Of a stretch of 64,000 nucleotides of DNA, positions 29,499 to 51,157 are shown piece after piece. The notes under the pieces are model-generated. The model had not been told where the DNA came from, made no database searches, and worked only from the letters and a program-made list of their open reading frames with translations. A program made the translations under genes and the position numbers. The stretch is from Aurantiacibacter gangjinensis (GTDB taxonomy: Bacteria; Pseudomonadota; Alphaproteobacteria; Sphingomonadales; Sphingomonadaceae), in NCBI RefSeq assembly GCF_001886695.1, contig NZ_CP018097.1, forward strand, positions 558,001-622,000, read 5' to 3'. How positions within the stretch are numbered: position 1 is the first letter of the stretch; the number at the start of each line of letters is the position of its first letter.

Positions 29499-29589
29499 CG
29501 AACCGCCTTACGTGGCACCGCCTAAATATCGGTTAACCGAGACTTCCGCTTGCTTTTGAATGCCTTGCTATCGTGGTGGCCGGCGCGAT

Positions 29590-30417: not shown

Positions 30418-30419
30418 GC

Positions 30420-31520: not shown

Positions 31521-31531
31521 GGGTTTGCGCC

Positions 31532-31900: not shown

Positions 31901-31964
31901 TTGGTGGCGCTCCAATTTGCGACGGCTTTGTTTTGTTATTGTGAGCCTGGTTGGGTGGAATGAC

Positions 31965-32402
31965 TTAAGCCGTTACAGGCTCAGCGTTGATAAAGGGTTC
32001 AACCCGCAGCAGAAGGGCGGAGCCGATCTCGGTATCGACAACGCCGGCGGCGACGCGGGTCCAGGCTTTGCCTACCCCGCCCAGCACCTGCTCGGGTGCA
32101 CCGCGCGCTTCGACGACATCTTCGACATCGTCCAGCAGCAGCGCATAGTGGTGGCCGTTATGCTTGATGACGGCGGCCTGGCGTACGCCGGATGAGGCGT
32201 CACTCGACTCTTCCTCGCCCAGCACGCGGGCGCAGTTGATCACGGTCAGCGCCTGGCTTCGCAGGGTGGACAGGCCTTCGACATGGTCCGGCGCGCGCGG
32301 CACCGGCGTGATCCGCTCGATTTCCACGATGGATTCGATCTCGCGCGCGATCAGGGCGACGCGGCGACCTGCAAGGCTGGCGATCAGGATGGGGTCGTTC
32401 AT
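31965..32402 (-). CDS. cheW: Chemotaxis adaptor CheW
   Basis: 145 residues of one CheW domain ('GRRVALIAREIESIVEIERITPVPRAPDHVEGL', 'NCARVLG', 'VEDVVEA'). It links receptors to CheA. ATGA overlap with cheA. Confidence 0.9.
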   Translation of the reverse strand: MNDPILIASLAGRRVALIAREIESIVEIERITPVPRAPDHVEGLSTLRSQALTVINCARVLGEEESSDASSGVRQAAVIKHNGHHYALLLDDVEDVVEARGAPEQVLGGVGKAWTRVAAGVVDTEIGSALLLRVEPFINAEPVTA

Positions 32403-34753: not shown

Positions 34754-35165
34754 ATGTTCCAACCTGTGAATGTCAGATGGCAGACATGGCCGATCATGGT
34801 TGACGAAGCGTTAAGTCAAGGATGCGGCGATTAAGTATTTTTGCTGCCGACGGCTTTTCGAAAAGATGATGGCGGGACCGACACGATTGCTCCGCCGCTC
34901 GCGCGGCTACGCCGTCTGCACTTCGCTCCGACTGCGAACGAGGTTCGCCGCGTCATAATCCTCTACAAGAAATAGCTGGCAGGAAAGACGGCTCGGTTTA
35001 GGGCCCGAGAGGATCGTCTGATCATGGTGGCGGCAATGGAGATGCGACGCGGATCGAATCATACATTCCCGTTTCTCGCGCGCGCAGCAAAGCCGCGATC
35101 CGACCGATGTACCGCAGAAGCGGATCGCCGAGATTGGCTGGCAAAGTGCGGACTCGCCGATCAGT
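34754..35165. other. Non-coding junction between che operon and accessory cluster
   Basis: 412 bases. It should hold the cheA promoter at its left end. I see no convincing gene, tRNA or transposon end. The change in gene content from core to accessory begins here, so this is the likely left border of the catabolic cluster. Confidence 0.4.
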
Positions 35166-36668
35166 TTATGGTTGATGGTGGTTCAGACTGCGAGAGGGGA
35201 TTTCGACGCGGTCGTCGACAGAGCGAAGGACGACGCGATGGGTCGCTGCTTGCCTCCCTATATTCGCGCCATCAGGGGTCGATGAAGCGAGAAAGGTAGC
35301 GACCATGTCGCTTGTCGCCGCGAGCATGTTCTCACCGTCGACGGCGCCGAGGAGCGGGTTGGGCGCCAGAGTCTTTAGGACAGGCGAGGCCAGGGCGAAG
35401 TCTGTAAAATCCATATGGCTGGCCCCCTCGACCTCGCGATAGATGACGTTCGTCGGAAACGGACGTCCGGCTTCTCGATACATCGTGCCATTGAGCGCCG
35501 GCACATTGCCGCGATCCGACATCAGCACCAGGAGGGGTTTGGAATAATGGACGCCGAAGAAGTCGCCGAACTGGAAACCGTCGAGGTTGATTGCCTTGCC
35601 GCACGGATCGATCTCGGCGCAAGCCTGCGCCGCAACAGCGCCTCCCAGAGACATTCCCACGATGGACAGGCGTGAGAGATCGAAATCGATCTCGAGTCCG
35701 GGGATGCCGCGCTGCTCAAGCGCCTCGACGACCAGTTCCACATCGGCGACCTGACCCCGAAGCGTGGCGTCGGCACCGCGCATCTCGCGCAGAGCTTCTG
35801 CGATTGCGCTGCGTTGGGCTGCCGCGTCCGTCGCAGTGGTAGCGCGGGTAAGTGCTTCGACGCCGCGCTCGTCGGCCAGAAGCGAATCGTTGGCAAACCC
35901 GACGACCCTTCCGTCGGGATAGGCGAGCGCACTCGCGTCGCCAGGCGAACCGATCGATATGACGACATAGCCACGAGACGCCAGATCCTGGGCGAGCACG
36001 GTGCTTTGCGTCGTGAAGGATCGGAAACCCGGCACGAAAAGAACAACCGGCGCCTGCTCGATGCCGTCGAGAAACGGCGCATTTGTCTGACTCTGGGTTT
36101 CTATCAGGCTCAGGTGACCGAATATGAAGGTCGGCATGGTGCCTGACACCATCCCGTCAGCGACTGCGGGATCCATCAGAGGCGCTCGCTCTTTGTCCGT
36201 CGCGTCGGTCGGATACCACACCTGCAGGGACAATTCGCGATTGCCGAAAGCCCCTTCTGCGGTTGGGTCCGGGCGGTCGGGATCGAGCAGTGAAAGCGTT
36301 TGCGTTCCGACCGCCTGTTCGCCCTGAGGTGCCGGAATGTCGAAGAGAGGAAAAAGCAGGGGCGGAAGAAACGCCACGACGAGGACCGACGTCGCCGCCG
36401 CACCTGCCAGGATCGAACGCCACCGACTTCGATCCTTCGGTTCACGCCACAAACGCCAGGCAGCCACGATTGCCGCCAGCACCGCGAGCATAAGTGGAGC
36501 AATCAACTGCCAGCGCCACGGTTCGAAGACAAGGACGAGGACTATCGCAAGCGCGGCAAGCCCGATCGCTCCGATCAGCCACCTTCGCATCCCCTTTCTG
36601 GTCAGAGTTCGGGCGAATAGGAGACATATGCCGCTCGCTACTGCGAGTAGAATGATCGTGAAGGTCAA
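35166..36668 (-). CDS. Membrane-anchored alpha/beta hydrolase, PAF-acetylhydrolase-like
   Basis: 500 residues. Four or so N-terminal hydrophobic helices (residues 1-110) anchor a hydrolase domain. 'PVVLFVPGFRSFTTQSTVLAQDLASRGYVVISI' matches the PAF-acetylhydrolase/dienelactone fold, 'GMSLGG' holds the nucleophile Ser, and 'GASHMDF' the His. It probably hydrolyses a small ester or amide near the membrane. Overlaps the M81 gene by 4 bases (ATGA), so it belongs to the leftward operon of the cluster. Confidence 0.75.
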   Translation of the reverse strand: MTFTIILLAVASGICLLFARTLTRKGMRRWLIGAIGLAALAIVLVLVFEPWRWQLIAPLMLAVLAAIVAAWRLWREPKDRSRWRSILAGAAATSVLVVAFLPPLLFPLFDIPAPQGEQAVGTQTLSLLDPDRPDPTAEGAFGNRELSLQVWYPTDATDKERAPLMDPAVADGMVSGTMPTFIFGHLSLIETQSQTNAPFLDGIEQAPVVLFVPGFRSFTTQSTVLAQDLASRGYVVISIGSPGDASALAYPDGRVVGFANDSLLADERGVEALTRATTATDAAAQRSAIAEALREMRGADATLRGQVADVELVVEALEQRGIPGLEIDFDLSRLSIVGMSLGGAVAAQACAEIDPCGKAINLDGFQFGDFFGVHYSKPLLVLMSDRGNVPALNGTMYREAGRPFPTNVIYREVEGASHMDFTDFALASPVLKTLAPNPLLGAVDGENMLAATSDMVATFLASSTPDGANIGRQAATHRVVLRSVDDRVEIPSRSLNHHQP

Positions 36669-38176
36669 ATGTCCTCCTCCATGGAGAGTATCCTGGGCTG
36701 CGCGGGATCTTCGACCAGGGGCCAGACGTCCGTATCGCGCCGCTCGTATCCGAGCTTATCGTAACGCGGCGATATCGCACCCGGCGTCGCCACGTAGAGA
36801 ATTCGTTTGGCGATCGGTGCGAACCGGGAATGGAAGTGCTGGGTCGACTTCACGGCGACGCAGTGAATGTCCGAAAGCTCCACGCCGATACCCGTGAAGG
36901 CATCCGGAGCAAACACCTGAGCACGAAGCGAACAGATCACGATCGCAACACCCTGCACCTGGACGGCTGCACACCGTCCAAGCGACACACGCGATCCGCC
37001 GAGACCGGTCTGCCAGTGGCTTTCCTTCAGCTGAAGCACTGTAGCGCCCAACGCCAGCGGTTCGCCGCTTAGCTCCCCGTGTCGTCCTCCCAGCCGCAGC
37101 TCGACGACCTCGCCTTCTCCCGCCGCGAAGCAGGCCTCGACGGCTTCGGGGTCGTAGTAGCAACCACTCGCTGCCCTCGTCACCTCGCCTTCCAGCATCG
37201 CTGCGAGTAGAAAAGTGGAATCGGACGGAGCTCCGCCGCCTGCATTGTCCGAGACGTCGGCGAGGACGGTCAGTCCATCTTCGCCCGCTCGCGCAAAATC
37301 GATAGCCTTGTCGAGCGACACGTGCGGCATGGCGGACCTTCCGCGCATAGCGAAGAAGGCCTCGGCCAGCTCCAATGCCTGCGTTTCGGCGAGATCCCGG
37401 TCGGCATCGGCATAGACCAACGCTCTCGATCCGGCATGGGGTACGTCGCCCCAGGGAAAACCGTGGACGAGGGATGCGCTCACGACGTGCTCCTTATGCT
37501 CCACCTGCTTCATTTGCTCGACGAGAGACGTCATCGCTGGCTCGCTCGTCGGCCAAAGCCCTATCATGCGACAATCGGCCACGCCTGCGACAGGATCGAT
37601 CCGACCCTCTACGATGTCGTGAACAAGGACATAGAGTTCGGCGGCACGCTCGACGATGTCGTCGTGCGGATAGTGCTTGTAGGCAACCAGCAGATCGCTC
37701 GCCGCGATCATGGCAGGCGTGAGATGCGCGTGCAGGTCCAGCAGTGCACCTACAGCCACACCCGGTCCCACGATCTCGCGCACTCGCGACAGCAGATCGC
37801 CTTCGCAATCTTCCGTCCCCTCCGCCGTCATCGCGCCATGCAGGTTGAGGAGCACGCAGTCGACAGGACCTGCAGCTCGAAGGTCGAAGAGGATATCGTC
37901 GCGGAGACCGACATATGTGTCGGCCAGGGCTGGGCCTGCCGGCTGAGCGAAGGCGGCGATGCTCTCGGTAACGCGGCATCCGCCGGCTTCGGCCCGCTCC
38001 CGCCAGTGCGTCATCGCGAGGACGTGCAGAGCCTCCGGCGCACGCACAGTCCCGTCACCACGGAAGAGCCCTTGCTCTTCGAAAGAGGTATCGTCGGTCG
38101 GTATTGGAGAGAAGGTGTTGGTTTCCGTCATCAGACCCGCGATGAAGACGTGTCCCATGTCGGCGTCCGGACTCAC
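36665..38176 (-). CDS. M81 family metallopeptidase (MlrC-like)
   Basis: 503 residues from GTG 38,176, which overlaps the upstream stop as GTGA; ATG at 38,158 is an alternative. N-terminal 'AGLMTETNTFSPIPT' and 'NLHGAMTAEG' are M81 hallmarks. The zinc ligands fit D147, H149 ('DLHAHLT') and H171 ('YPHDD'); this D-x-H-x21-H spacing is the same as I recall for MlrC, the enzyme that cuts linear microcystin fragments. A C-terminal MlrC domain follows from about residue 300. Likely a cytoplasmic peptidase for unusual peptides. Substrate inferred from context only. Confidence 0.88.
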   Translation of the reverse strand: MSPDADMGHVFIAGLMTETNTFSPIPTDDTSFEEQGLFRGDGTVRAPEALHVLAMTHWRERAEAGGCRVTESIAAFAQPAGPALADTYVGLRDDILFDLRAAGPVDCVLLNLHGAMTAEGTEDCEGDLLSRVREIVGPGVAVGALLDLHAHLTPAMIAASDLLVAYKHYPHDDIVERAAELYVLVHDIVEGRIDPVAGVADCRMIGLWPTSEPAMTSLVEQMKQVEHKEHVVSASLVHGFPWGDVPHAGSRALVYADADRDLAETQALELAEAFFAMRGRSAMPHVSLDKAIDFARAGEDGLTVLADVSDNAGGGAPSDSTFLLAAMLEGEVTRAASGCYYDPEAVEACFAAGEGEVVELRLGGRHGELSGEPLALGATVLQLKESHWQTGLGGSRVSLGRCAAVQVQGVAIVICSLRAQVFAPDAFTGIGVELSDIHCVAVKSTQHFHSRFAPIAKRILYVATPGAISPRYDKLGYERRDTDVWPLVEDPAQPRILSMEEDI

Positions 38177-39306
38177 GCCGCCGTCTTCTTGCCAAGGCGA
38201 TCCGGAGCCATTGTCGAGGCAAGCGCCCGCTCGCCGAGGTCTAGTTTTTCGCCGAGCAGGAGCCGCGCGCCTAGGTCGGACAAGGCGGGCGCGGTCTGTA
38301 TCCCGTAGCCGCCTTGGCCTGCGAACCAGAAGAAATCGTCGACCCGCGGATCGAATCCGACGACCGGTGTCTTGTCTGGGGTGAAGGAGCGCAGGCCAGC
38401 CCAGCTCGACGCTATGCGCCGCACCGGGAAATCGAGCAGCGACTGCATCCGGTCGATTGCGATCGCAAGATCGAGTTCCTCAGGCGCTGCATCGCAAGCA
38501 TCGGACGGGGTCTCGTCCGCCGGAGAGCAAAGGAGCTTCCCGCTCTCCGGCTTGAAGTAGAACTCCTCGGCAATGTCGATGACCGCAGGCCAGCTGGCCA
38601 TCGCGGCTTGTGAGACCGCAGGCAGCGCATCGACCAGGGCGACCGTTCGACGATGCGGCACGATGCCCTTCGCGCGCACTCCGCAGTCCCGGGCGACCGC
38701 ATCGGCCCAGGCACCTGCCGCGTCGACCAGAATCCTACAGTACAGACGCTCGTCGCCGAGCGCGAGTTTCCAACCGGCAGTAGCGCGCTGGATCTTCGGG
38801 AGGCGTCCGACGGAAAGGGCGACACCGCTTCGATTCGCCGCTCGGAGGAAACCGCCGTGCAGCGCGTCCACATCGATATCCATGGAACCGGGCTCGAACA
38901 GTCCGAAGGCGACAGCATCCTGCCGGAGCGGTGTCACCTTGGCGGCGATCTCCGTCGGTGAGAGGCGCATCATCTCGACGTCGCGCGCTTTAGCTACGTC
39001 GGCCAGGTCCTCCGCCTGCCCGACCTGTTTCGGTTTCACTGAATACAGACAACCGCGCGGGCTGAGCAGCGGACCGTTAAACGGGGAAGGTGGTAACTCG
39101 AAGAAGGTCCGTCCACGCCCAGTAAGCTCGCGAATGGTCGCGTTGCCATAGAGCTCGGTGAAGAGCGCAGCCGACCTTCCCGTGGTGTGATACCCTGGTG
39201 ACGTCTCCATTTCTACGAGAAGGACGCGCGCCTTGTCAGCAAGTCGCGCCGCAATGGATGCCCCTGCTATTCCCGCTCCGATAACTGCTACGTCGTAGTC
39301 CAACAA
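38173..39306 (-). CDS. FAD-dependent D-amino-acid dehydrogenase, DauA-like
   Basis: About 377 residues. Begins 'DYDVAVIGAGIAGAS'; the segment 'PGYHTTGRSAALFTELYG' and the C-terminal 'WAGLRSFTPDKTPVVGFDP...GQGGYGIQTAPAL' closely follow my memory of Pseudomonas D-arginine dehydrogenase DauA. It would oxidise D-amino acids to 2-oxo acids and ammonia. The start is a TTG: GGAGG at 39,316-39,320 lies nine bases before TTG 39,306, whereas the longer form would begin directly at the GGAGG. A 16-bp palindrome lies 35 bases upstream. First gene of the leftward operon after the regulator. Confidence 0.82.
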   Translation of the reverse strand: MLDYDVAVIGAGIAGASIAARLADKARVLLVEMETSPGYHTTGRSAALFTELYGNATIRELTGRGRTFFELPPSPFNGPLLSPRGCLYSVKPKQVGQAEDLADVAKARDVEMMRLSPTEIAAKVTPLRQDAVAFGLFEPGSMDIDVDALHGGFLRAANRSGVALSVGRLPKIQRATAGWKLALGDERLYCRILVDAAGAWADAVARDCGVRAKGIVPHRRTVALVDALPAVSQAAMASWPAVIDIAEEFYFKPESGKLLCSPADETPSDACDAAPEELDLAIAIDRMQSLLDFPVRRIASSWAGLRSFTPDKTPVVGFDPRVDDFFWFAGQGGYGIQTAPALSDLGARLLLGEKLDLGERALASTMAPDRLGKKTAA

Positions 39307-39340
39307 ACAACCCAACCTCCGATTGAAGTCAGGATACGTC

Positions 39341-39356
39341 GTTTCCTATAGGAAAC
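39341..39356. promoter_or_regulatory. Perfect 16-bp palindrome, probable operator
   Basis: GTTTCCTATAGGAAAC lies between the regulator gene and the dehydrogenase gene, 35 bases before the likely dehydrogenase start. The same left half recurs at 40,107 in the divergent promoter. Position and symmetry suit the adjacent XRE-cupin dimer. Confidence 0.65.
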
Positions 39357-39360
39357 AAGA

Positions 39361-39999
39361 CTATTTCTCGGATGGGTCGCGCTCCGGCGCGTCCGAGCGA
39401 GGCGCAAACGACGGATTTCTGGGTTCCAAAGCCTCGTTGATCGTCTCCGCGGGAGCGCTGACGACAGCTAGCGTGCGGCATGTCCCATCGCCCACATTCA
39501 GGTAGGCATGGCCCATATCGCTATCGAGATAAACCGACTGTCCCGCATCGAGGGTGGCGGCCTCGTACAGTTCAGTGAGGACCTGAAGACGACCTTCCAA
39601 TACGTAGAGGAACTCCTCGCCTTCATGGCGGACGAAGTCCCCGAACTCCTCGCGAGTACGTGCAGTGTGCTCGACGACGAGAGGGACCATCTTCTTGTTG
39701 AGTATCTCGGTGTTGAGATAGTGATAGACATAGTTGGACGTCTCGATCGTGCCCGCTGTCGCGTCCCCGCGATCGATACTCCGCCTCCCGGAGAAGCGTG
39801 TCTCGACCGGCGGCTTTTCGAAAAAGGTCGCGATGTCGACGCCCAGTCCCGTGGCAAGCGCCGCAAGCTTGTCGTAGGTCAGGGAGAGGCGTCCGTTCTC
39901 CGCCTTCGACAAGGCCGAGGTGGATATGCCGGTCATGCGAGCGACATCAGCAAGGCTCCAGCCGTTGCGCGAGCGCAAGGCGCGCAACGCCTCGCCCAA
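39361..39999 (-). CDS. XRE family regulator with C-terminal cupin
   Basis: 212 residues in the TTG form. HTH: 'LRALRSRNGWSLADVARMTGISTSALSKAENGRLSLTYDKLAALATGLGV'. From about residue 110, a cupin fold with 'FVRHEGEEFLYVLEGRL' and 'DSDMGHAYLNVG' senses a small ligand. Such regulators (PuuR type) control catabolism of amines and amino acids. The frame is open upstream; ATA at about 40,022 with AAGGGG ahead would add nine residues and has the better ribosome site. It is divergent from the TonB receptor gene and should control both arms of the cluster. Confidence 0.88.
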   Translation of the reverse strand: MGEALRALRSRNGWSLADVARMTGISTSALSKAENGRLSLTYDKLAALATGLGVDIATFFEKPPVETRFSGRRSIDRGDATAGTIETSNYVYHYLNTEILNKKMVPLVVEHTARTREEFGDFVRHEGEEFLYVLEGRLQVLTELYEAATLDAGQSVYLDSDMGHAYLNVGDGTCRTLAVVSAPAETINEALEPRNPSFAPRSDAPERDPSEK

Positions 40000-40106
40000 T
40001 GGATTACGTTCGGTCGCTATCGCCGCCCCCTTCGTGGTGTGTCGATGCGATTTGATCGTGGCAAATCGGACGCATGTAAAGCCCGGGAAGACAAGCTGTC
40101 GAAAAA

Positions 40107-40120
40107 TTTCCTATAGACAA
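40107..40120. promoter_or_regulatory. Degenerate second operator in the divergent promoter
   Basis: TTTCCTATAGACAA shares TTTCCTATAG with the palindrome at 39,341 and differs from it at two positions in the right half. It lies 47 bases before the TonB receptor start and 107 bases before the regulator start, so it could control both genes. Confidence 0.5.
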
Positions 40121-40166
40121 TCTCGTCCATTATGCGAAACATACGCCATGAATGGGAGGGAATGAC

Positions 40167-42389
40167 ATGAATAGCATAGTTCCACGCCGCCTGCTTGCCG
40201 CCGCCTCGCTTCCCGTAGTGGCCGTCGCCACTGCAGCTCAGGCACAGAGCGTGTCACCGGGCGAAAGCGCCTCTCAGGACGAGGTTGCGCCCGAAGACAG
40301 GGTCATCGTCGTTACCGCGCAGAAGCGCGAGCAGGACCTGACGGACGTGCCTGCATCGATCACCGTTTTCGATGGCGAGGCTCTCGAGAACATCGGCGCC
40401 GTCGACTTCGAGGACTATGCCAAATACATCCCGGGTCTAGGCGCATCTTCGCAGGGCGGACCGGGTCAACGCCAGCTCATCCTGCGCGGCGTCAATGCGG
40501 GCGACGATCCCGCCTCGACCGTGGGAGTATATGTCGACGAGGCGCCAGTGGGCTCGTCCACCTCGCTTGCGACCGGCGGGCGTCTGGGGTTCGAGCTCGT
40601 GCCGTTCGACATCGAACGGATCGAGGTTTTGCGCGGGCCGCAAGGAACCATCTACGGAGCGAGCACGCTGGGTGGTTTGCTCAAATACGTCACCCGCGCC
40701 CCCGATCTCGATGAATTCGAAGGGCGGGCCGACGCCAGCGTGTTTGCGGTCGACAACGGCGGACTCAACTACACGGCGAACGCAGCGCTCAACGTGCCGA
40801 TTGCCGGCGTCGCCGGTCTGCGCTTCACCGGCTTCTACGCCAGGGACGACGGCTTCGTGGACAACGTCGTTACGGGGGTCGAAGACATAAATGGCAACGA
40901 GCGGTACGGCGGCCGAGCGCAGCTTCTCGTCGAACCAGGGCCGAACGTCTCGCTGCGCGCGGCTGCGCTATACCAGCGCACCGAACAGGACGACAGCGCG
41001 CTCGTGCGCTACGATTTCGCGACGGGCGAACCTGTCTTCGGCGAACTCGAGAACGACCGGACGGTCGCGGCGCAACTGACGCAGGACTTCCAGCAATATT
41101 CACTTACCGCCGACTTCGACTTCGGCTTCGCGACGCTGACCTCCGTTTCGGCGTATTCGGAACTTGAGACGCCGGCGATCGGTGACGCGACTGCCAGTTT
41201 CGGAGCCGCGTTCGGCTCCACCGCGGTCGCGCTGCTGCGCGCGGCGGAGACAGAAAAGTTCGTGCAGGAACTACGGCTCACATCGGCGTCGCGCGCAGAC
41301 GGCATGCCGCTGGAATGGCAGGTCGGCCTGTTCTACACCGAAGAGGACAGTCTGAACGACCAGATTCTGACGGTGCGAGACGGTCCGTTCGTGCCGCTCA
41401 ATCCGGCGGCGGTCGTCGAACTGCCGACGAGCTATGAGGAATTCGCCGTATTCGCGAACACCACAGTATTCTTTGGCGACCGCGTGTCGCTCAACCTGGG
41501 ATTGCGTATCGCGGAGAACGAGCAGTCGTTCAGCCAGAGCACCAGCGGCCCCGCGGTCGGTCTGCCTCCTGGCGTCGTGTCGACGGTGACGAACGAGTCG
41601 AGCGACGGAACGGCGACCTTCGTCGTCGCGCCAAACTGGCAAATCACCGACGACGTGACCCTTTATGCCCGTGCCGCATCCGGATATAGGCCAGGTGGCC
41701 CGAATGCGATCCTGCCCGATCCCGCCAATCCAGGCGAAAGCCTCGTCCCGCTCACCTTCGATCCGGACACGCTGTGGAATTACGAGGCAGGGGTGAAAGG
41801 CAACTTCGGCAATTCCGGCACGTTCGGTCTGGCAGCGTTCCGCATCGACTGGGACGACATCCAGATCATCCAGATCGTGAACGGCGCCACATTCCGCGGG
41901 AACGGCGACACTGCCCGAAGCCAAGGCGTCGAGGCCGAAATCGCCTTCGAGCCGGTCGAAGGTCTGACGCTCGGCGGGAACGTCGTCTACACCGATGCCG
42001 AGCTTACTGCCGACACCGGGGTGGTCGTAGGCGGCCGCGACGGCGACCGTCTTCCGCTCGTTCCCGAATGGGCGGCTACCGCCTTCGCCGACTACACCTT
42101 CCCGCTTTCGGACACGATTATAGGCAATGTCGGTGCGACCGTCAGCTACACCGACGACCGGCGATCGGGCTTCCCTGCAAGTTTAACCAATCCGTCCTTC
42201 ACGCTCGACGACTACCTCGTGGTGGATCTCAGGGCGAGCGTAGACTTCGACAGCTTCAGCGTCTCTGCGTTTGCCAAGAACCTCACGAACGAGATACCGC
42301 AGCTCGGCGCGACAAACGTAGGCGGTCGACTTGATGTCGCGGTAGGCCGTCCAAGGGCGTTCGGACTGCTCGTCGCGGCCGATTTCTGA
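40167..42389 (+). CDS. TonB-dependent outer-membrane receptor
   Basis: 740 residues. ATG at 40,167 follows GGAGGG by six bases. A signal peptide ends near 'ATAAQAQS'. The TonB box region 'DRVIVVTAQKREQDLTDVPASITVF' leads into the plug ('VEVLRGPQGTIYGASTLGGLL' type) and a 22-strand barrel that ends in 'FGLLVAADF' with terminal Phe. It would import the cluster's substrate across the outer membrane with TonB energy. First gene of the rightward operon, 167 bases from the divergent regulator. Confidence 0.95.
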   Translation: MNSIVPRRLLAAASLPVVAVATAAQAQSVSPGESASQDEVAPEDRVIVVTAQKREQDLTDVPASITVFDGEALENIGAVDFEDYAKYIPGLGASSQGGPGQRQLILRGVNAGDDPASTVGVYVDEAPVGSSTSLATGGRLGFELVPFDIERIEVLRGPQGTIYGASTLGGLLKYVTRAPDLDEFEGRADASVFAVDNGGLNYTANAALNVPIAGVAGLRFTGFYARDDGFVDNVVTGVEDINGNERYGGRAQLLVEPGPNVSLRAAALYQRTEQDDSALVRYDFATGEPVFGELENDRTVAAQLTQDFQQYSLTADFDFGFATLTSVSAYSELETPAIGDATASFGAAFGSTAVALLRAAETEKFVQELRLTSASRADGMPLEWQVGLFYTEEDSLNDQILTVRDGPFVPLNPAAVVELPTSYEEFAVFANTTVFFGDRVSLNLGLRIAENEQSFSQSTSGPAVGLPPGVVSTVTNESSDGTATFVVAPNWQITDDVTLYARAASGYRPGGPNAILPDPANPGESLVPLTFDPDTLWNYEAGVKGNFGNSGTFGLAAFRIDWDDIQIIQIVNGATFRGNGDTARSQGVEAEIAFEPVEGLTLGGNVVYTDAELTADTGVVVGGRDGDRLPLVPEWAATAFADYTFPLSDTIIGNVGATVSYTDDRRSGFPASLTNPSFTLDDYLVVDLRASVDFDSFSVSAFAKNLTNEIPQLGATNVGGRLDVAVGRPRAFGLLVAADF

Positions 42390-42414
42390 TGACGGTCCGG
42401 GAGACATTAGGAGC

Positions 42415-43749
42415 TTGACCTCCGCCACCGAAGCCCAGCCGGACATGGACGCCTCGTCCTACGCGAGGCCTGCATACGCCTGGTATGCGCTCGGCCTCTT
42501 CGTGCTGACGATCCTGCTCGCATTCATCGACAAACAGATCATATCTCTGATCGTCGAACCGCTGCAGGCGTCGCTGTCGATCTCGGATACGCGGATCGGC
42601 GTGCTGCAGGGATTGGCGTTTTCGCTGTTTGCCGCGATTGCCGCACTTCCACTTGGGCGCCTCGTCGATCGTACACACCGGGTCCGCATGCTTATCATAT
42701 GCATGCTGATCTGGTCGACGATGACGATACTGTGCGGGTTCGCGCAGAGCTTCGCTCAGCTCTTCGCCTTCCGCGTGGGCGTGGGAATCGGAGAAGCGGC
42801 GATCATGCCGCTGATCTATTCTCTTCTCGCCGACTTCTTCCCACGGGGAAAGCGCGCGACGGCGATGCTCGTCTTCTACCTGACCGTCGTCGTTTGCGCG
42901 AGCCTCTCGGTCAGCCTCGGCGGCCTCGCGCTCGGTGCCCTCGCTTCGGGCAGTATAACTCTGCCCGGTCCCCTGGCCGACTTCGACGACTGGCGTGCCG
43001 CCTTCATCATCGTGGGCATCCCGGGACCGATCGCCGCAGTGCTCATCGGCCTCACCCTACGCGAACCCGAACGGCACGACCTGGCCAGCGTGAACGGACA
43101 GGGTCTCACAGTGCGGCAGGTCGCCGACTATCTGGCCCAGCGCAAGGGACTGTTCCTTCCACTGGTCTTCGGTTCAGCCGCCGCGCTATCGGTCGGCAAC
43201 GCCATCAACAGCTGGCATCCGACGATCATGATCAGGGAGTTCGACTGGCTCGCCTCGACTGCCGGAATCCGGTATGGCCTCGCGGCGGCCATCTGCGCCG
43301 GCGTCGCAGTGCCGTTCGCGATCGTCATGGAGAAACGTCTGCGCAAGCGAGGTGCAGGCCAGGTGGCGACGCTACTTCCGGCAGGGGCGGCACTGTCGCT
43401 GCTGGTGGTGCTCGTCGTGCCGCTCCTCGGCGATGCGAACGTGGCTCTTTCACTCGGTGCCGGACAGCTCTTCGGCCTCTACTGGATCGTAGCTCTGACG
43501 CCGGTGCTCATACAGGAGGTCGCTCCAAACGAGATGCGCGGGCAGATCCTAGCCCTTTCCACGCTGATATCGACGATCCTGCAAGGCTTCAGCCCGGTCG
43601 CGACCGGTTTCTTCTCAGACGCAGTCTTCGACGGCGACAGGGCGCTGAGCCTCTCGGTCGCGGCGACCGCCTTGCCGATACTCGTAGTCGCGATCGTCCT
43701 CTACCTTCCGATGCGGCGCCGTTTCGCAAAGGAAGTGGAGCCGTCATGA
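42415..43749 (+). CDS. MFS transporter, Spinster-like
   Basis: 444 residues with about 12 membrane helices. 'LLAFIDKQIISLIVEPL' and 'GRLVDRTHRVRMLIICMLIWSTMTILCGFAQSF' are the usual first-helix and loop 2-3 signatures of the Spinster/sphingosine-1-phosphate group that accompanies TonB receptors in sphingomonads. TTG start assumed; ATG at 42,445 is an alternative. It should carry the substrate across the inner membrane. Its stop overlaps the next start (ATGA). Confidence 0.9.
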   Translation: MTSATEAQPDMDASSYARPAYAWYALGLFVLTILLAFIDKQIISLIVEPLQASLSISDTRIGVLQGLAFSLFAAIAALPLGRLVDRTHRVRMLIICMLIWSTMTILCGFAQSFAQLFAFRVGVGIGEAAIMPLIYSLLADFFPRGKRATAMLVFYLTVVVCASLSVSLGGLALGALASGSITLPGPLADFDDWRAAFIIVGIPGPIAAVLIGLTLREPERHDLASVNGQGLTVRQVADYLAQRKGLFLPLVFGSAAALSVGNAINSWHPTIMIREFDWLASTAGIRYGLAAAICAGVAVPFAIVMEKRLRKRGAGQVATLLPAGAALSLLVVLVVPLLGDANVALSLGAGQLFGLYWIVALTPVLIQEVAPNEMRGQILALSTLISTILQGFSPVATGFFSDAVFDGDRALSLSVAATALPILVVAIVLYLPMRRRFAKEVEPS

Positions 43750-45254
43750 AGCCGCAAGACGTCGAACGAACCCTGGCTGAATTCCTGACCAGCCTCGGGG
43801 TCGCGGACGCGCCCGGCCTGTCGGTCGCGATCGCCTATGGCGAGGAACAACCGATCTGCGGGCAGACCGGACGTCTGGGCCCTTCGGACAGTCGACCGAT
43901 AACTGAAGACACCCCCTTCCGCATCGGATCGACGACGAAGCAGTTCACCGCCGCAGCGGCGCTGCTTCTAGCGCAAAAGGGCCGCCTCGATCCGGACGCG
44001 TCGATCTGCGACGGCCTTGGCGAAACGAGCCAAGTGCTCGGCGAGGTCCGCCTGCGCGACTGCCTCACCTGCACATCGGGAATACGCGACGAACTGGATA
44101 TCTGGCTGTTCTCGCGTGGGCCGTCCTTCATGTCGGGTGCCGAGGGTGTCCGGCGAGCGCTGGCACGTCGCTCCATCAATTTCCGACCCGGCACTCGGTT
44201 CTGCTACAACAACACCGGCTTCGCACTCGCATCGCTGGTCATCGAGCGGACAGGGCCAGGAAGTTTCGAAACCGTGCTTCGGGAGAAGCTGTTGGAACCT
44301 GCCGGTCTTGCGGATACCGCTCTCTTCGCGAACGACGCCCATCTGCCCGATCGATGCGCAAGGACCAGCCTACCCGATGGCGACGGTCACGCCCTGGCTA
44401 GCTTCCCCACCGAGATCACCGGAGAAGGCGGCCTGATCGCCACTCCGAAGGATTTGGTTCGATGGAACCGTTGGCTGCGCGCAGTGGAGGATGGCGCGAT
44501 CTTCGAACGGATGACCGCGCCGACGTCGCTCGACCGCGGTGGAGCAAGCGCCTACGGCTTCGCTCTGATCCGGGAATTTTCGCGGGGGGTGGAAAGGATA
44601 CACCATCCAGGCGGCGTCATCGGCGGATCGGCCCAACTCGTGTTCTATCCGAAGGCGGGCTGCACCATCGCGGTCGCCTCGAACAACGGGACCCTGTCCG
44701 CTCCCGACATCGCGGACCGGTTGGCGGAGCGGCTCTGCATCCTGCCTCCTGCGCCACCACCGGCGCACACCGGTCCGGTCGGTGACTTCATCGAGCCGAC
44801 GAGCGGAAGGGGGTTCTCGCTTCGAGCGGGCGCGCTCGATCTGCACGTTCACACGCTACCTCTCGTCGAGCGATCCGACGGCTCGGTCGCAGCCGAGAGT
44901 GCGGGGCTCGGACAGATCGCCTTCGGCAAGAGGGGCGGAAAGACATTCCTTCAAGAACACGGTCAGGTCCGTTTGTTGGACAAGATCTCTTGTGGACCGG
45001 TCGATGCCGATGCGAGCGGAGCGTTCGTCCGAGGCGACGTCCGGATCGACATCGAAGCGAAGGAGATGCGTATCTCGGCACCGGAAGGCGAAACCTATTA
45101 CGCGCTCACTTCGATCGGCGCCGACAGCTGGGCGGCCGTCCCACGCTCCGCCATACCTCTCTATGCCACCGTGCAGCGCACCGAGCGCGGTGTCAGCGTC
45201 TCGACGCTGCGCAACTGGAACCTGGCGTTCGAACCGATCGGCACCGGGACATGA
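43746..45254 (+). CDS. Serine hydrolase of the beta-lactamase/S12 family, D-aminopeptidase-like
   Basis: 502 residues. SxxK is S62-T-T-K65, the Tyr motif is Y154-N-N156 and HxG is H287-P-G289. From memory these fall on, or within one residue of, the active-site positions of Ochrobactrum D-aminopeptidase DAP (S62, K65, Y153, H287), which is also about 520 residues with two extra beta-barrel domains. The last 160 residues here have that beta-rich look. It would release N-terminal D-amino acids. No signal peptide, so cytoplasmic. MlrB of the microcystin pathway belongs to the same superfamily. Both junctions are ATGA overlaps. Confidence 0.8.
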   Translation: MKPQDVERTLAEFLTSLGVADAPGLSVAIAYGEEQPICGQTGRLGPSDSRPITEDTPFRIGSTTKQFTAAAALLLAQKGRLDPDASICDGLGETSQVLGEVRLRDCLTCTSGIRDELDIWLFSRGPSFMSGAEGVRRALARRSINFRPGTRFCYNNTGFALASLVIERTGPGSFETVLREKLLEPAGLADTALFANDAHLPDRCARTSLPDGDGHALASFPTEITGEGGLIATPKDLVRWNRWLRAVEDGAIFERMTAPTSLDRGGASAYGFALIREFSRGVERIHHPGGVIGGSAQLVFYPKAGCTIAVASNNGTLSAPDIADRLAERLCILPPAPPPAHTGPVGDFIEPTSGRGFSLRAGALDLHVHTLPLVERSDGSVAAESAGLGQIAFGKRGGKTFLQEHGQVRLLDKISCGPVDADASGAFVRGDVRIDIEAKEMRISAPEGETYYALTSIGADSWAAVPRSAIPLYATVQRTERGVSVSTLRNWNLAFEPIGTGT

Positions 45255-46435
45255 CGGCACTGGACCGCGCCCACAACATTGAAGACCTGAGGCGTCTCGC
45301 AAAACGGCGTCTGCCGCAGGCCATGTTCGACTATATCGACGGAGGTGCCGAGGACGAGGGTACGATGCGGGGTAACCGGGACGCATTCTGCGAGGTCAGC
45401 TTGATACCTCGCCAACTCGTCGATGTCTCGAAGGTCGATCCGAAGACGACGGCGTTCGGGTGCGATATCGACCTGCCGTTCATGATCGCCCCGACGGGCA
45501 TGTCGGCGATGTTCCATCCGGATGCGGAGCGAGGCGTTGCCCGCGCAGCCGGCCGGTCCGGCACGCTCTATTCGCTATCGACGATGGGATCGACCAGCAT
45601 AGAGGACGTGGCGGCGTCCTCGAGCGGGTCGAAGGCTTTCCAGATCTACGCCTTCCGCGATCGCGCGCTGACGTCGGAATTCATCGAACGGGCACGCTCG
45701 GCGCGATACGATGCGCTCATCCTGACCGTGGATGTTCCAGTCGCCGGCAATCGGGAGCGCGACCTCAGGAACGGTATGACGCTCCCGCCAGCGCTCGGTC
45801 TCATGGGCATCCTCGACATCGCGAGGCACTGGCGCTGGTCGCTCGACTATGTGCGGGCGCCGCGCATGACGCTCGCCAACGTCGCGCATCGCATCGCGGA
45901 GGCGAACGCGGACATCTCGACCTTGAGCGGCTACATCGCGAACCAGTTCAGTTCGTCCATGACCTGGGACGACGCCCGCAGCATAGCAGAGGAGTGGGGT
46001 GGTCCCTTGGCGATAAAGGGTGTCCTTCATCCGGACGATGCACGGCGAGCCGTCGATGCAGGGGCGAGCGCCGTCGTCGTCAGCAACCATGGCGGACGCC
46101 AGCTCGACGGAGCCATCGCGTCGATGGACGCGCTTCCCGGAATCGTGGACGCGATCGGTGATAGATGCGAGGTCTTCCTCGACGGAGGAATTCGACGCGG
46201 TAGCGACATTGTGAAGGCGATCGCCCTCGGTGCGAAGGCTTGCTTCGTCGGACGACCCTATCTCTATGGTCTTGGCGCTGCGGGCGAAGCCGGGGTGGAA
46301 GAAGCCTTGACTATCCTTGCCTCCGAGACGCGGCGCGTAATGGCTCTAATGGGCGCGACAGCACTCGGCGATCTCGATCGCACCTGTCTTTCGCACAGAA
46401 CTCTTGCCGCTTCATCGCATCAGCGCGGGGAGTAG
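45251..46435 (+). CDS. FMN-dependent alpha-hydroxy-acid dehydrogenase
   Basis: 394 residues. Starts 'ALDRAHNIEDLRRLAKRRLPQAMFDYIDGGAEDE' as in the lactate/mandelate/glycolate oxidase family. K256 ('AIKGVL'), H280 and R283 in 'SNHGGRQLDG' are the catalytic residues, and 'GGIRRGSD' with 'GRPYLYG' binds FMN phosphate. It oxidises an L-2-hydroxy acid to the 2-oxo acid. Alongside a D-amino-acid dehydrogenase it could process hydroxy-acid units of a depsipeptide; that link is inference. ATGA overlap with the preceding gene. Confidence 0.92.
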   Translation: MTALDRAHNIEDLRRLAKRRLPQAMFDYIDGGAEDEGTMRGNRDAFCEVSLIPRQLVDVSKVDPKTTAFGCDIDLPFMIAPTGMSAMFHPDAERGVARAAGRSGTLYSLSTMGSTSIEDVAASSSGSKAFQIYAFRDRALTSEFIERARSARYDALILTVDVPVAGNRERDLRNGMTLPPALGLMGILDIARHWRWSLDYVRAPRMTLANVAHRIAEANADISTLSGYIANQFSSSMTWDDARSIAEEWGGPLAIKGVLHPDDARRAVDAGASAVVVSNHGGRQLDGAIASMDALPGIVDAIGDRCEVFLDGGIRRGSDIVKAIALGAKACFVGRPYLYGLGAAGEAGVEEALTILASETRRVMALMGATALGDLDRTCLSHRTLAASSHQRGE

Positions 46436-48593
46436 AGCGCTGATCGCAAGCATAAGATCCGACGAGGAAAATCGCAGCAAAGAACCGCCTGGCGATCGAG
46501 ATGCCGGCCGGAAACAGCGAGCGGCGCTCATTTGCGTAACCACCTTCTGGTGTAGTCTCGGCATAATTGCGGCCTACGCGCTGCTTACGGACCAACGCCT
46601 GTTGGCGGCTGGCTCCATCTTGCTATTCCTTGTCGTTGCCGCCGCTACGGAGCGCCATCTTAGCCGATGGATTGGCCTCATCAGCGGGAGCCTGATCGCA
46701 GCTACGCTCAGTTATCGCTCGCAATTCTGGGCAGGTCCGACCTTCGGCGAAGGCTTCGCCGCTGCCTCACTCGTTCTGGGCGCTGCACTGCTATGCGTCG
46801 TCGCCGTGAGCGCGGGAAGTTTCTCGCGCAGACGCCTTGCCGTGCCTGCGGTCGTCGCAGGTGGCATCGTCGCTACGATTGCCAGTATGTCGGCCTACGC
46901 CCATGCCGGTCCGACGACGCGTCATTCGATCGCTATAGCCAGCCACGACGGAACGCTTCTCGCGGCGGACATATATCTGCCACGCTCCATCCCTGCGGAC
47001 GGTCTATCGGCCATCCTCATGCAGACCCGATACAACCGCGGATGGTCGGTGCGATGGCCATGGCGCTTCGTCCTGACAGGCGACGCTCCTCTCGCCGATG
47101 CATTCACACGCGGGGACTTCGCTTACGTAGCCGTCGACGCGCGCGGGTCGGGCGCTTCAGAAGGCGAGCAGGCAGTGTCCTTCTCTCCGGAGGAACGGGC
47201 GGACGGTCCGGCACTTGCAGGCTGGATACGCCGGCAGTCTTGGTCTAACGCCACCGTGTATGGCGAGGGCATCTCCTATGCAGGCGTGGCGACCGATCTC
47301 GCATGGTCGCAAGGCGCGCTCGATGGGGCGGTCGTGGCCTTCGCGCCCTACGACATCCTACGCGACACCGTCTGGCCCGGTGGCCTCCTGGCCGAAACCT
47401 TCGCGCGCCGCTGGTCCCTCGTCACCACTAGTCTAGACGCGGGTGAGCCGGAACGGGTCTTCGCATCACTCGCGAGGTTCGTGTCCGGGGTGCGCCCGCT
47501 CGACTCCGATCCAGACGGAACCGCACTAGCCGCACTGATCGCTTCGCGACGGAACTACGTACCATACGACCTGTTCGCCTCCGCACCGTTCCGCGGCGAC
47601 CTGGTAGAAGGACAGGACGTGTGGTCTCGTGCGAACTTCACGTATCGAGCGCCTCAAGGCGCGCCACCGCGTCTGGTGATCGGGGGCTGGTATGATGGTG
47701 GCAACACCAATGCTGCGCTCCGGCGCCTCATCCACGATCCCGGATCGCATCTCCTCATCGGCCCATGGGACCACGGAGGGCGGCAGATCATCAGCCCGTG
47801 CGAGGACGACGAGGCGAAGGTTCTCGACTATCCGCGTGTGGTCACCGACTTTCTCCGAAGCTCCTCCACTACTACCGGGCAGTCCCGTGTGAGATATTTC
47901 ACGATGTGCGGAGGCGGCTGGAAAGAATCTTCAAGTTGGCCCGTAGCCGACGTCCGATCGCAGACCTTATATCTGTCCGGAACGTCGCTTAACTCACGAG
48001 CCGCTCCCTATTTTCCACGAACCCTCATCGTGGATCCTTCGGCCACGACCGGGAAGGGAAGCCGGTGGCTTAGCCCTGCAAACTTCGACGGTACACTTAT
48101 AGAATACACAGAGCTTTTCGACCAGTCGCAGCATAGGCTGACATTCGAAACCGGCCCCCTTCGAAATGACATGATCTTGACCGGCAACGCCGTGATTGAG
48201 ACAGCGATCACGGCCGACGCGGCAGATGCTTCAGTCTTCGCATATCTTGAGGACGTCGGACCCGCTGGCGATGTTCGCTACATTACCGAAGGTCAGATCC
48301 GGGCATCACACGCGGCGTTGGCGATCGGCCGCGACGCCCTTTATGAGGACGTCATCCCGCACCGAACCTTGCGCGCCGAACATCGGAGGGCTCTGTCACT
48401 CGACGAACCGCTGATCTTGCGTTTCGGCATGCAAGCGACTTCCTACCGGATCGCTGCCGGCAGGCGCCTTCGCCTGTCCTTCGCAGGAGCGGACCACGAC
48501 AATTTCGCCGCCGTGCCCGACGGAGCATCGCGCATCACCTTCCATTCCGTCGACGGACGCGCGCCGACCTTAGATCTCCCGATCGAACAGTGA
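46404..48593 (+). CDS. Membrane-anchored CocE/NonD (S15) family hydrolase
   Basis: 729 residues in the longest form. The first 165 residues hold about five membrane helices, unusual for this family. The catalytic half has 'VAVDARGSGASEGE', the nucleophile S291 in 'GEGISYAG', Asp in 'IGGWYDGG' and His in 'GPWDHGG', then a C-terminal jelly roll. Relatives are Xaa-Pro dipeptidyl peptidases, cocaine esterase and glutaryl-acylases. The start is unclear: TTG 46,404 overlaps the previous gene by 32 bases, while CTG 46,440 lies seven bases after GGGGAG. Confidence 0.85.
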   Translation: MPLHRISAGSRALIASIRSDEENRSKEPPGDRDAGRKQRAALICVTTFWCSLGIIAAYALLTDQRLLAAGSILLFLVVAAATERHLSRWIGLISGSLIAATLSYRSQFWAGPTFGEGFAAASLVLGAALLCVVAVSAGSFSRRRLAVPAVVAGGIVATIASMSAYAHAGPTTRHSIAIASHDGTLLAADIYLPRSIPADGLSAILMQTRYNRGWSVRWPWRFVLTGDAPLADAFTRGDFAYVAVDARGSGASEGEQAVSFSPEERADGPALAGWIRRQSWSNATVYGEGISYAGVATDLAWSQGALDGAVVAFAPYDILRDTVWPGGLLAETFARRWSLVTTSLDAGEPERVFASLARFVSGVRPLDSDPDGTALAALIASRRNYVPYDLFASAPFRGDLVEGQDVWSRANFTYRAPQGAPPRLVIGGWYDGGNTNAALRRLIHDPGSHLLIGPWDHGGRQIISPCEDDEAKVLDYPRVVTDFLRSSSTTTGQSRVRYFTMCGGGWKESSSWPVADVRSQTLYLSGTSLNSRAAPYFPRTLIVDPSATTGKGSRWLSPANFDGTLIEYTELFDQSQHRLTFETGPLRNDMILTGNAVIETAITADAADASVFAYLEDVGPAGDVRYITEGQIRASHAALAIGRDALYEDVIPHRTLRAEHRRALSLDEPLILRFGMQATSYRIAAGRRLRLSFAGADHDNFAAVPDGASRITFHSVDGRAPTLDLPIEQ

Positions 48594-48990
48594 TGCTGAG
48601 CTTTTGGAAAGAGAAGCCTGCGAGACTATGAACTACGTGCGGAGCTTGTCGATAGCGCTCCTTATTCCCAGTCTCCAAGGCTTCGATAGATCAGCTTGCC
48701 GGAGCGGCGGCGATTGCGGCCTCTCGCGTCCTTCTCGACCCCGTGACATGATCGAGCGCGGTGTCGGCCGGCTCGAAGTCGGAAGAGTATATGCTGTTGG
48801 CAGTCTTCGCCGTCGTTCCGGCGCTGATCGCAACTGCCGGATGCATCGCCAGCGTCCGGCCGAAGCGTTCCGTGTGAAGATTCTTGCGGACCCCATCGCA
48901 ACCCGGATCGTTCATTCTCGTCCGATTGGCACATCCTGCTTGCGGTGACACCAACGACACAAACGCGATGCCCGTAAATAAGGAAAGAAC
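48594..48990. other. 397-base gap without a convincing gene
   Basis: Several short frames overlap on both strands, none with a ribosome site or a recognisable domain. It may be an eroded gene. It separates the tight rightward operon from the flavin monooxygenase gene, which probably has its own promoter here. Confidence 0.35.
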
Positions 48991-50319
48991 ATGGACCGCG
49001 CAGACAACTTTCCCAAGAAGATCCGCATCGGGATCATCGGAGCCGGACCGGCGGGCCTGACGACGGCGCTTGCGATCGAGTATTATGATCGAAAAAAGCG
49101 GTTCGAGGTCACGTTGTTCGAACGCAACAGCTCACCGACAGACTATCCCGGTGTCGAATACGGCATACAAGAGCGGGCGTGCCGCGCGTTCGAGCGGATC
49201 GGTATCCGCGAGAAGGCGTTACACCGCAGCCTGCGCGCCCGGAAAATTACGTTCTATAATTCGCGGCTCGAGAAAAAGTTCAGGCCAATCGAGCTCGATG
49301 GCGATTGGACGCGTCATGTTGTGCGGCAGGAATTCGTCGCCGACCTGGTCGGGCTGGTGAAGAGGGCAAAGCTGCTGACGAACCATGAGATAGTCAGCGT
49401 CAGGCCGAATGAAGACCGATCCGTCACTCTGAAGGCAAACATCGGAGAGGGGCGGAATGAGGAGTTCACCTTCGACGCCGTCCTTTCCTGCGACGGCTCA
49501 TCTTCCACGACGCGCTCGCAATTGTTCCCCATGCAGGACGAGAAGCGCGATCAGGGTTTCTCGTGCATCTACATGATGCTCGAGGCCGAGAAGCCTCTGG
49601 AAGCGGAGGAACGCTACCTCGCGATGACAAACGCCGGGGTCAGCAACCTCATCATGGGCGAGGAGGCGACCCTCACGACGTTTCCGCTCGGAAAGGGGCG
49701 CGCGGCATATGGCATAGGCTTCGATCATCAGAGCCGAGGACACCTCTGGTCCCGGTTCGATCTCGATCCGGACACCGAATGGGCGGACATACCTGCAAAT
49801 ACACGTGAGGCGCTGGCCCGCCGTCTCGTCGAAGATGCCTGCGCGCACGATCCATTCTATGCCGAGATGCTCAAGCACGTGCAGGACTGGATGAGCCCTC
49901 GCGTCTATCTATGGGCCATGGAGGATACCGATCCGCTCCATCCGCCCTATGGCGAGACGGGCAATGTCCTCGCGATCGGCGATGCGGCGCACGTGCTTCT
50001 TCCAACGATCGGCATGGGCGCGAGCACAGCGATCGAGGACGGCGAGATGCTCGGACGATTTCTAGTCGAGGGATCGGCGGGCGTTCCCGGTCCCGAAGTG
50101 TTCCGGCAGCAATTCGCCGATAGCGTCGCGAAACCCTACGCCGCCGAACGCACGGAAGTCTGGGACGATCTTGTCCGACGCGCCCGAACGGCGGCCGAGA
50201 TCAACTTCACCGATCAGCACGAGCGCAAGCGCTTCGCGGTCGGACCGCAAATTCCTCATCGGACTGCGTCAAGACTGGTCAGCGCAATCGAAAAGGCCGC
50301 GCGTGCTGCGGGAGTCTGA
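48991..50319 (+). CDS. FAD-dependent aromatic-type monooxygenase (PHBH fold)
   Basis: 442 residues. 'RIGIIGAGPAGLTTALAIE' binds ADP, and 'NVLAIGDAAHVLLPTIGMGASTAIEDGEML' is the GD motif that binds the ribityl chain. The layout fits salicylate- or kynurenine-hydroxylase-like group A monooxygenases, which hydroxylate with NAD(P)H and oxygen. 'CDGSSSTTR' is the usual DG motif region. Its link to the cluster is by position only; it may act on an aromatic residue of the substrate. Confidence 0.85.
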   Translation: MDRADNFPKKIRIGIIGAGPAGLTTALAIEYYDRKKRFEVTLFERNSSPTDYPGVEYGIQERACRAFERIGIREKALHRSLRARKITFYNSRLEKKFRPIELDGDWTRHVVRQEFVADLVGLVKRAKLLTNHEIVSVRPNEDRSVTLKANIGEGRNEEFTFDAVLSCDGSSSTTRSQLFPMQDEKRDQGFSCIYMMLEAEKPLEAEERYLAMTNAGVSNLIMGEEATLTTFPLGKGRAAYGIGFDHQSRGHLWSRFDLDPDTEWADIPANTREALARRLVEDACAHDPFYAEMLKHVQDWMSPRVYLWAMEDTDPLHPPYGETGNVLAIGDAAHVLLPTIGMGASTAIEDGEMLGRFLVEGSAGVPGPEVFRQQFADSVAKPYAAERTEVWDDLVRRARTAAEINFTDQHERKRFAVGPQIPHRTASRLVSAIEKAARAAGV

Positions 50320-50996: not shown

Positions 50997-51045
50997 TGGC
51001 GCACCCGACAGGATTCGAACCTGTGGCCTCTGCCTTCGGAGGGTA
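50997..51045 (-). repeat. 3' half of tRNA-Arg(CCG): probable att site of an integrated element
   Basis: Read on the minus strand: anticodon loop CTCCGAA, 3' anticodon stem GGCAG, variable bases, T-arm ACAGG-TTCGAAT-CCTGT, acceptor CGGGTGC, G and CCA. The D-arm and 5' acceptor strand are absent, so it is not a functional tRNA. Truncated 3' tRNA copies mark the distal end of islands inserted by tyrosine integrases. The orientation places the element to the right of this site. Confidence 0.8.
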
Positions 51046-51157
51046 GCGCCTAGTGACGAAAATGGCGGAAAACCGATGTTTACACGAACGGAATGTTCGG
51101 AACATTCGACGAACAAAGCAAGAATAGCGGATATTTTCGCCGGAGTTTCGCCGGAGC

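Follow-up and report, generated by a model that had tools for sequence, protein, structure and literature searches.

The window analysed here, a stretch of 64,000 nt from Aurantiacibacter gangjinensis (contig NZ_CP018097.1, positions 558,001 to 622,000; host genome 2.72 Mb), carries a cluster of ten genes lettered A to J, eight of which, A–H, we read, with a probability of about 0.6, as a catabolic unit under XRE-cupin control that acts on small peptides, or N-acyl peptides, containing D-amino acids. The eight genes code for a membrane-tethered hydrolase (A), an M81 metallopeptidase (B), a DauA-like dehydrogenase (C), the regulator (D), a TonB-dependent receptor (E), an MFS carrier (F), an S12 hydrolase (G) and a flavin mononucleotide (FMN)-dependent dehydrogenase (H) (Table 1). 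Catabolism of D-residue peptides is well supported by the genomic context, the evidence being the gene set, its conservation, two operator-like sites, active-site residues and co-location statistics. The D-amino-acid peptide theme had been put forward in an earlier note on this DNA, made from the sequence alone, and gene context, active-site residues and co-location statistics all speak for it, while only inference points to depsipeptide or hydroxy-acid chemistry.

Conservation and regulation of genes A–H

Genes A–H occur in identical order and orientation in G009, a genome from a different genus of the family, with protein identities of 60% for A, 61% for B, 62% for C, 77% for D, 86% for E, 80% for F, 53% for G and 76–81% for H. 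Because the same eight genes keep the same order in a different genus, A–H (35166–46435) is, as far as sequence comparison can tell, a real eight-gene unit with an arrangement beyond chance. The earlier note had taken all ten genes as one set, to be given up if no relative conserved the neighbourhood; the synteny in G009 upholds A–H and not I and J: unrelated genes lie downstream of H there, and I and J were not seen in the stretches read, J not having been sought genome-wide. Gene I gave no match at E ≤ 1e-30 in any of the six genomes searched, G009 included, this search having had no positive control.

M81 genes are rare in the family, at least 15 of 397 genomes (the host included) matching B at E ≤ 1e-60; up to three candidates were scored per genome, which makes the M81 counts lower bounds. 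None of the 11 same-genus genomes listed matched at this threshold and, among the 15 matching genomes, only G009 was seen to hold A–H, so the unit looks acquired. Receptor E has at least four matches at E ≤ 1e-140 among 396 genomes of the order, again with the host included, the best other one being 44% identical; this search scored only two candidates in each genome and its output lacks G009 (either not drawn or not scored), so it is no proof of absence. A search with G among named genomes returned one weak planctomycete match with 23% identity. A mosaic origin, in which the receptor and the carrier would be younger than the enzymes, was considered and is unsupported, the identity at fourfold sites being 24–41% in seven genes (F left out), values which we read as saturation.

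The regulator gene is flanked by two operator-like sites, O1 between D and C and O2 between D and E. These are the sole sites in the 2.72-Mb genome that fit their shared pattern TTTCCTATAGNNAA, the reversed control pattern having none, and shuffles of the window contained on average 0.02 matches with one mismatch allowed. O2 recurs unchanged in G009, and a form with two mismatches stands there in the place of O1. Evidence for the sites is confined to the two orthologous clusters, because no O1-like palindrome was found in the gaps examined beside more distant XRE-cupin genes; a scan of the surrounding 1 kb gave no sigma-70-like promoter. From this arrangement we infer that D binds both putative operators and controls both arms, and A–H is probably switched by its own regulator, in line with the “regulated cluster” of the earlier note, where two operator-like sites now add to the XRE-cupin gene that it named.

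XRE-cupin regulators of Pseudomonas aeruginosa have been described as controlling functions tied to the uptake or processing of amino acids or small molecules (PMC7901475). A close known system is the dbu operon of Pseudomonas putida (DbuR/DbuA/DbuB/DbuC), in which an XRE-cupin regulator likewise stands beside a D-amino-acid oxidising enzyme and a palindromic site is present. It differs in that the dbu regulator is divergent, whereas D and C both lie on the minus strand, and in its Rid2 protein, no Rid family being represented among the ten genes, which in turn add peptide hydrolases and a TonB receptor.

The gene set at other M81 loci

Six of the families (M81, DauA-like dehydrogenase, XRE-cupin, TonB receptor, MFS and S12) make up a core that recurs in two further genomes. 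In one of them (G360, loci L062/L123) the families of D, C, E, F, G and B are contiguous; the other (G555) belongs to a different family of the class and has all six inside some 12 kb, along with a gene for an M19 dipeptidase, its S12 gene being cut at the stretch edge. A different arrangement is seen in G486, where genes for an MFS carrier, a TonB receptor, a DAO protein, an FMN_dh protein, M81, a CocE-type hydrolase and a GMC oxidoreductase follow in a row with an aminotransferase gene ahead.

Profile searches of 25 M81 loci and 39 control stretches, the latter mostly from the same genomes, gave S12 at 18/25 against 2/39, DAO at 10/25 against 1/39, XRE-cupin at 9/25 against 0/39, TonB at 21/25 against 12/39 and MFS at 8/25 against 2/39. 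The set of 25 contains some near-duplicates and the orthologous cluster itself (L021), and omits the short contigs L023 and L024, a partial third copy from G411, the plasmid loci and loci fetched later. Fourteen of the 25 also belong to the training set of the multi-sequence profiles; at the remaining 11, S12 was found seven times, DAO four times (one weak, 58 bits), XRE-cupin four times, TonB eight times and MFS six times. Genes of the I and J types were found at none of the 25 loci and in none of the 39 controls. The earlier note had proposed looking for co-occurrence of its ten families; S12, DAO and XRE-cupin are enriched at M81 loci, and the six-gene core is present in two more genomes. 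In a class-wide draw of 142 genomes, scored for at most 13 DAO and 10 M81 candidates per genome, a DauA-like gene lay within 5 kb of 5 of 46 M81 copies (the window's own excluded), 0.11 being expected.

Further enzymes acting on D-residues stand at M81 loci, namely an M55 D-aminopeptidase at L030 and L066 and an M19 dipeptidase at L120, and a gene annotated as a D,D-dipeptide ABC (ATP-binding cassette) permease is also found at an M81 locus; M19 dipeptidases accept D-residues. Among plasmids, 281 records match B and five M81 loci were read, all of them among the 20 matches listed. The Phyllobacterium locus has an M55 D-aminopeptidase with Dpp-type ABC genes, that of Sulfitobacter has genes for a tripartite ATP-independent periplasmic (TRAP) transporter, that of Paracoccus has S12 and MFS genes, and that of Aureimonas contains neither a D-like nor a C-like gene.

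We propose, tentatively and at somewhat short of even odds, that M81 enzymes in general would be hydrolases for D-residue peptides, with MlrC as one specialised member. Alphaproteobacteria would then carry widespread and reshuffled D-peptide utilisation loci with a core of XRE-cupin, DauA-like and M81 genes, interchangeable importers (TonB with MFS, TRAP or Dpp-type ABC) and interchangeable D-peptidases (S12, M55 or M19), the window holding a TonB-fed, hydroxy-acid-equipped form for a peptide natural product.

At L030 (8707–12653) and L033 (8123–11965), two M81 genes stand next to an S12 hydrolase and a TonB receptor. Both loci also contain genes for a pyridoxal phosphate-dependent enzyme and a member of the HpcH/HpaI aldolase family, and M55 occurs in L030, the assignment of L033 resting on its clustering with L030.

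Active sites, proposed pathway and alternatives

Enzyme B carries both M81 domains and matches the MlrC structure 7ylq (E 1e-96). It retains the four zinc ligands of MlrC (E39, D167, H169 and H191) together with H133, D332 and D341, all of which are invariant in an alignment of 22 M81 proteins, B plus 21 selected from the loci. Of the pocket residues of MlrC, with roles as given in PMC9982164, B shares N41, E70, F96, D341, S392 and R492 and departs at W59, F67, Q468 and S485; it scores 352 bits, below the MlrC cut-off of 999 (NF041767). As a side point, E70, for which a role as general base has been proposed in print, is Glu in one and Asp in two of the 21 other M81 proteins, the alignment being uncertain in this loop, and that role appears not to be carried by conservation across M81.

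Enzyme C matches DauA, the D-arginine dehydrogenase of P. aeruginosa (3nyc, E 3e-72), and has its DAO domain, the carboxylate-binding pair R222 and R305, Y249, the gate residue Y53 and E246, whereas H48 is replaced by Leu and E87 by Cys89. In the P. aeruginosa enzyme, also called PaDADH, E87 binds the guanidinium group of D-arginine and need not be ionised for D-leucine (PMC11193025). E87 is missing in all 13 DauA-family proteins compared and R222, Y249 and R305 are retained in all 13. The absence of E87 with retention of these three residues suggests neutral D-amino acids as the substrates of C, while the residue expected for D-arginine is lacking. The host genome has a second DauA-like gene (G000:C1:236972-238036, L125), 48% identical to C and without E246, with no M81 gene within about 9 kb on either side.

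Hydrolase G keeps the active-site residues Ser62, Lys65, Tyr153, Asn155, His287 and Gly289 of the Ochrobactrum anthropi D-aminopeptidase DAP (PMC9053604) as S62, K65, Y154, N156, H287 and G289, and the SxxK, Tyr, Asn, His and Gly set is present in all five sequences compared (G and four relatives). With a four-sequence G profile, DAP was the top PDB match (1ei5, 147.4 bits), level with 2qmi (147.3 bits). Profile positions 4–483 align to DAP residues 3–472 of 520 and, among the three alignments shown, only that of DAP extends through the C-terminal part, the active-site loop with Asp481 lying outside it. Dehydrogenase H falls below the L-lactate dehydrogenase cut-offs (340 against 376 bits for NF008398 and 292 against 550 bits for NF033901).

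The following course may be envisaged. Receptor E would take the peptide across the outer membrane, A may cleave an ester or acyl bond in the periplasm and F would pass the peptide across the inner membrane. In the cytoplasm G would free N-terminal D-residues and B, by comparison with the Adda-Glu cleavage of MlrC, would cut acyl- or aminoacyl-D-amino-acid amide bonds; the Glu of the microcystin Adda-Glu bond is in the D form. Neutral D-amino acids would then be converted by C to 2-oxo acids and, in what is the weakest step, H would oxidise an L-2-hydroxy acid coming from the substrate or made from the 2-oxo acids of C. D, acting at O1 and O2, would repress both arms until its cupin domain takes up a ligand. 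If this is true, it describes how environmental bacteria can feed on D-residue peptides that withstand ordinary proteases. M81 enzymes other than MlrC seem to have little assigned function, and the cluster provides a concrete connection of M81 with D-amino-acid catabolism, its operator-like sites and neighbours narrowing the candidate activities. The locus is built from known families in a combination not found in print in the literature searched, which left out most subscription journals and yielded no publication linking M81 to D-amino-acid dehydrogenases.

Several observations weigh against reading A–H as a D-residue peptide unit. The exact cluster is known from two genomes only, and no DauA-like gene lies within 5 kb at 41 of the 46 M81 copies of the class sample, so M81 is not tied to such a gene everywhere. 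At the five plasmid loci read, a D-like XRE gene was found at three and a C-like gene at two; FMN_dh was found at 2/25 M81 loci and an A-type hydrolase at 1/25 (each 0/39 in controls), and sugar kinase, isomerase and sulfatase neighbours suggest other roles for some loci. G scores 86.1 bits, about one fifth of the 443-bit cut-off of the D-aminopeptidase equivalog NF009622, its profile fits a penicillin-binding protein-related protein as well as it fits DAP, and many S12 hydrolases are esterases. As to the regulator, no ligand was identified for DbuR, which was not required for induction by D-amino acids (PMC12724383), so the switch suggested for D has no direct model.

A narrower form of the proposal, along the lines of the earlier note, that the substrate is a non-ribosomal depsipeptide made of D-amino acids and L-2-hydroxy acids, in which A or I would open esters, G and B would cut amides and C and H would oxidise both kinds of product, is doubtful as a special case. 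H is joined to its arm by a 4-base overlap and is conserved together with the unit, A is esterase-like, and at L061 the M81 gene is directly adjoined by DAO, FMN_dh and CocE/S15-family hydrolase genes; valinomycin and cereulide do contain D-amino acids and L-hydroxy acids. However, the rarity of FMN_dh at M81 loci given above speaks against it, H could act on any L-2-hydroxy acid, and a non-ribosomal origin of the substrate is without support.

Scavenging of muropeptides is unlikely: imported peptidoglycan stem peptides would be cut by M81 at an L-Ala-D-Glu type bond and C would oxidise D-Ala. This explanation draws on the cleavage of the Adda-Glu bond by MlrC (PMC12474180). TonB–S12–MFS triads without M81 in the stretch stand in G081 and on a Sphingobium plasmid, where an enolase-superfamily gene comes next; the enolase superfamily includes Ala-Glu epimerases. 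Against muropeptides, no amidase, NagZ, Mpl or LD-carboxypeptidase family was found by Pfam among the ten genes, the esterase-like hydrolase is unexpected, and PaDADH does not oxidise D-Glu (PMC11193025).

Degradation of esters or xenobiotics, with the S12 and alpha/beta hydrolases acting as esterases and the D-amino-acid theme borrowed from distant homologues, has a slim chance of being correct. The esterase-like families of A and I, the matches of the G profile to solved esterases and the aromatic-type monooxygenase J would fit, but I and J lie outside the conserved unit, and an M81 gene and a DauA-like dehydrogenase gene beside one regulator, recurring in several genomes, are left unexplained.

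The cluster resembles at the family level the mlr cluster of microcystin-degrading sphingomonads, where MlrB is S12, MlrD is MFS and MlrC is M81 (PMC12474180), and the shared zinc ligands and six shared pocket residues extend the likeness to MlrC itself. A degenerate or variant mlr pathway is nevertheless very improbable, since no gene of the Rce1/CAAX family of MlrA (PF02517) is among the ten, the sole PF02517 match in the genome (a family-level match, not compared with MlrA itself) lies about 0.4 Mb off at C1:1014072, B is far below the MlrC cut-off and four pocket positions are changed. The absence of MlrA asserted in the earlier note thus stands, and on sequence grounds mlr membership is excluded, the S12, MFS and M81 logic being common to both. 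The unit differs further in its TonB receptor, XRE-cupin regulator, DauA-like and FMN dehydrogenases and membrane esterase, and G has no hydrophobic N-terminal segment by hydropathy scan, whereas for MlrB a periplasmic location and a signal peptide are listed in PMC12474180. According to PMC6167471, the additional mlr genes mlrE and mlrF have no known function.

Gene layout and genomic surroundings

All ten families named in the earlier note are present as open frames in a divergent cluster, with Pfam, NCBIfam and PDB profile matches in agreement (Table 1). Its division into two arms holds for D-C-B-A on the minus strand and E-F-G-H-I on the plus strand, J being set apart beyond I. Its statement that most junctions are 4-base overlaps proved too strong: these were found at four of the eight within-arm junctions (A/B, B/C, F/G and G/H), the others being gaps of 45 bp (C/D), 25 bp (E/F) and 397 bp (I/J) and a 32-bp overlap (H/I), with lengths that vary with the start codons chosen. 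The two membrane-anchored hydrolases it described are recognisable in A and I, each with four hydrophobic N-terminal segments in a simple hydropathy scan; the closest solved structure to A is 5yae, ‘Esterase’ (E 5e-21).

Table 1 Features of the cluster and its right-hand limit, in window coordinates
Feature	Position	Strand	Assignment	Basis
A	35166..36668	-	PAF-AH II family esterase-type alpha/beta hydrolase, GMSLG motif, four N-terminal hydrophobic segments	Pfam, hydropathy
B	36665..38176	-	M81 metallopeptidase (MlrC family)	PF07364 + PF07171
C	38173..39315	-	DauA-like flavin adenine dinucleotide (FAD) D-amino-acid dehydrogenase	DAO PF01266
O1, putative operator	39341..39356		Perfect 16-bp palindrome GTTTCCTATAGGAAAC, upstream of C, just past D	Motif search
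D	39361..39999	-	XRE-cupin transcription regulator	HTH_3/HTH_31 + Cupin_2
O2, putative operator	40107..40120		TTTCCTATAGACAA, upstream of E	Motif search; same sequence in G009
E	40152..42389	+	TonB-dependent outer-membrane receptor; alternative start ATG 40167 possible	PF07715 + PF00593
F	42415..43749	+	MFS inner-membrane carrier	PF07690
G	43746..45254	+	S12 serine hydrolase, overall length as D-aminopeptidase DAP	PF00144
H	45251..46435	+	FMN-dependent 2-hydroxyacid dehydrogenase family	PF01070, 461 bits
I	46404..48593	+	CocE/NonD (S15-type) hydrolase, N-terminal hydrophobic segments; accessory	TIGR00976, 215 bits vs cut-off 66
J	48991..50319	+	FAD_binding_3 monooxygenase, aromatic-type; probably outside the unit	Pfam, PDB match
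Left attachment-like repeat	50997..51049		52/53 identical to end of tRNA-Arg; right-hand limit of cluster context	

The left flank (27963–34762) contains GGDEF/EAL-type, CheR-, CheB- and CheA-like genes, named by reading their translations. In the stretches compared, the segment at 30.8–34.8 kb is conserved with G542 and G499, two genomes of the same genus. When 26 genomes were searched with CheA, 10 matched, and synteny with the two same-genus genomes that matched best stops at 34754–34816, just left of A.

On the right, a 53-bp repeat of the tRNA-Arg end (52 identical) occurs at 50997–51049 of the window and at 11464–11516 of L110, equivalent to window positions 75464–75516. Between the two copies lie about 24.5 kb that carry type I restriction-modification genes, an integrase-like gene (a SAM-like domain match only) and genes for a MobA/MobL relaxase and a thymidylate-synthase-like protein. 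The restriction-modification genes right of the cluster belong to a separate tRNA-Arg-associated integrative element, with A–J just outside. The whole region as one mobile island was considered and rejected, the tRNA-Arg repeat bounding the element right of J and no second match to the tRNA stretch being found at the left edge of the cluster. In G009 (L039, 2568–13000) a large DNA-methyltransferase-like gene comes after the cluster and a resolvase-like gene stands further along, again named from their translations, so both copies of the cluster lie near defence-type or mobile genes.

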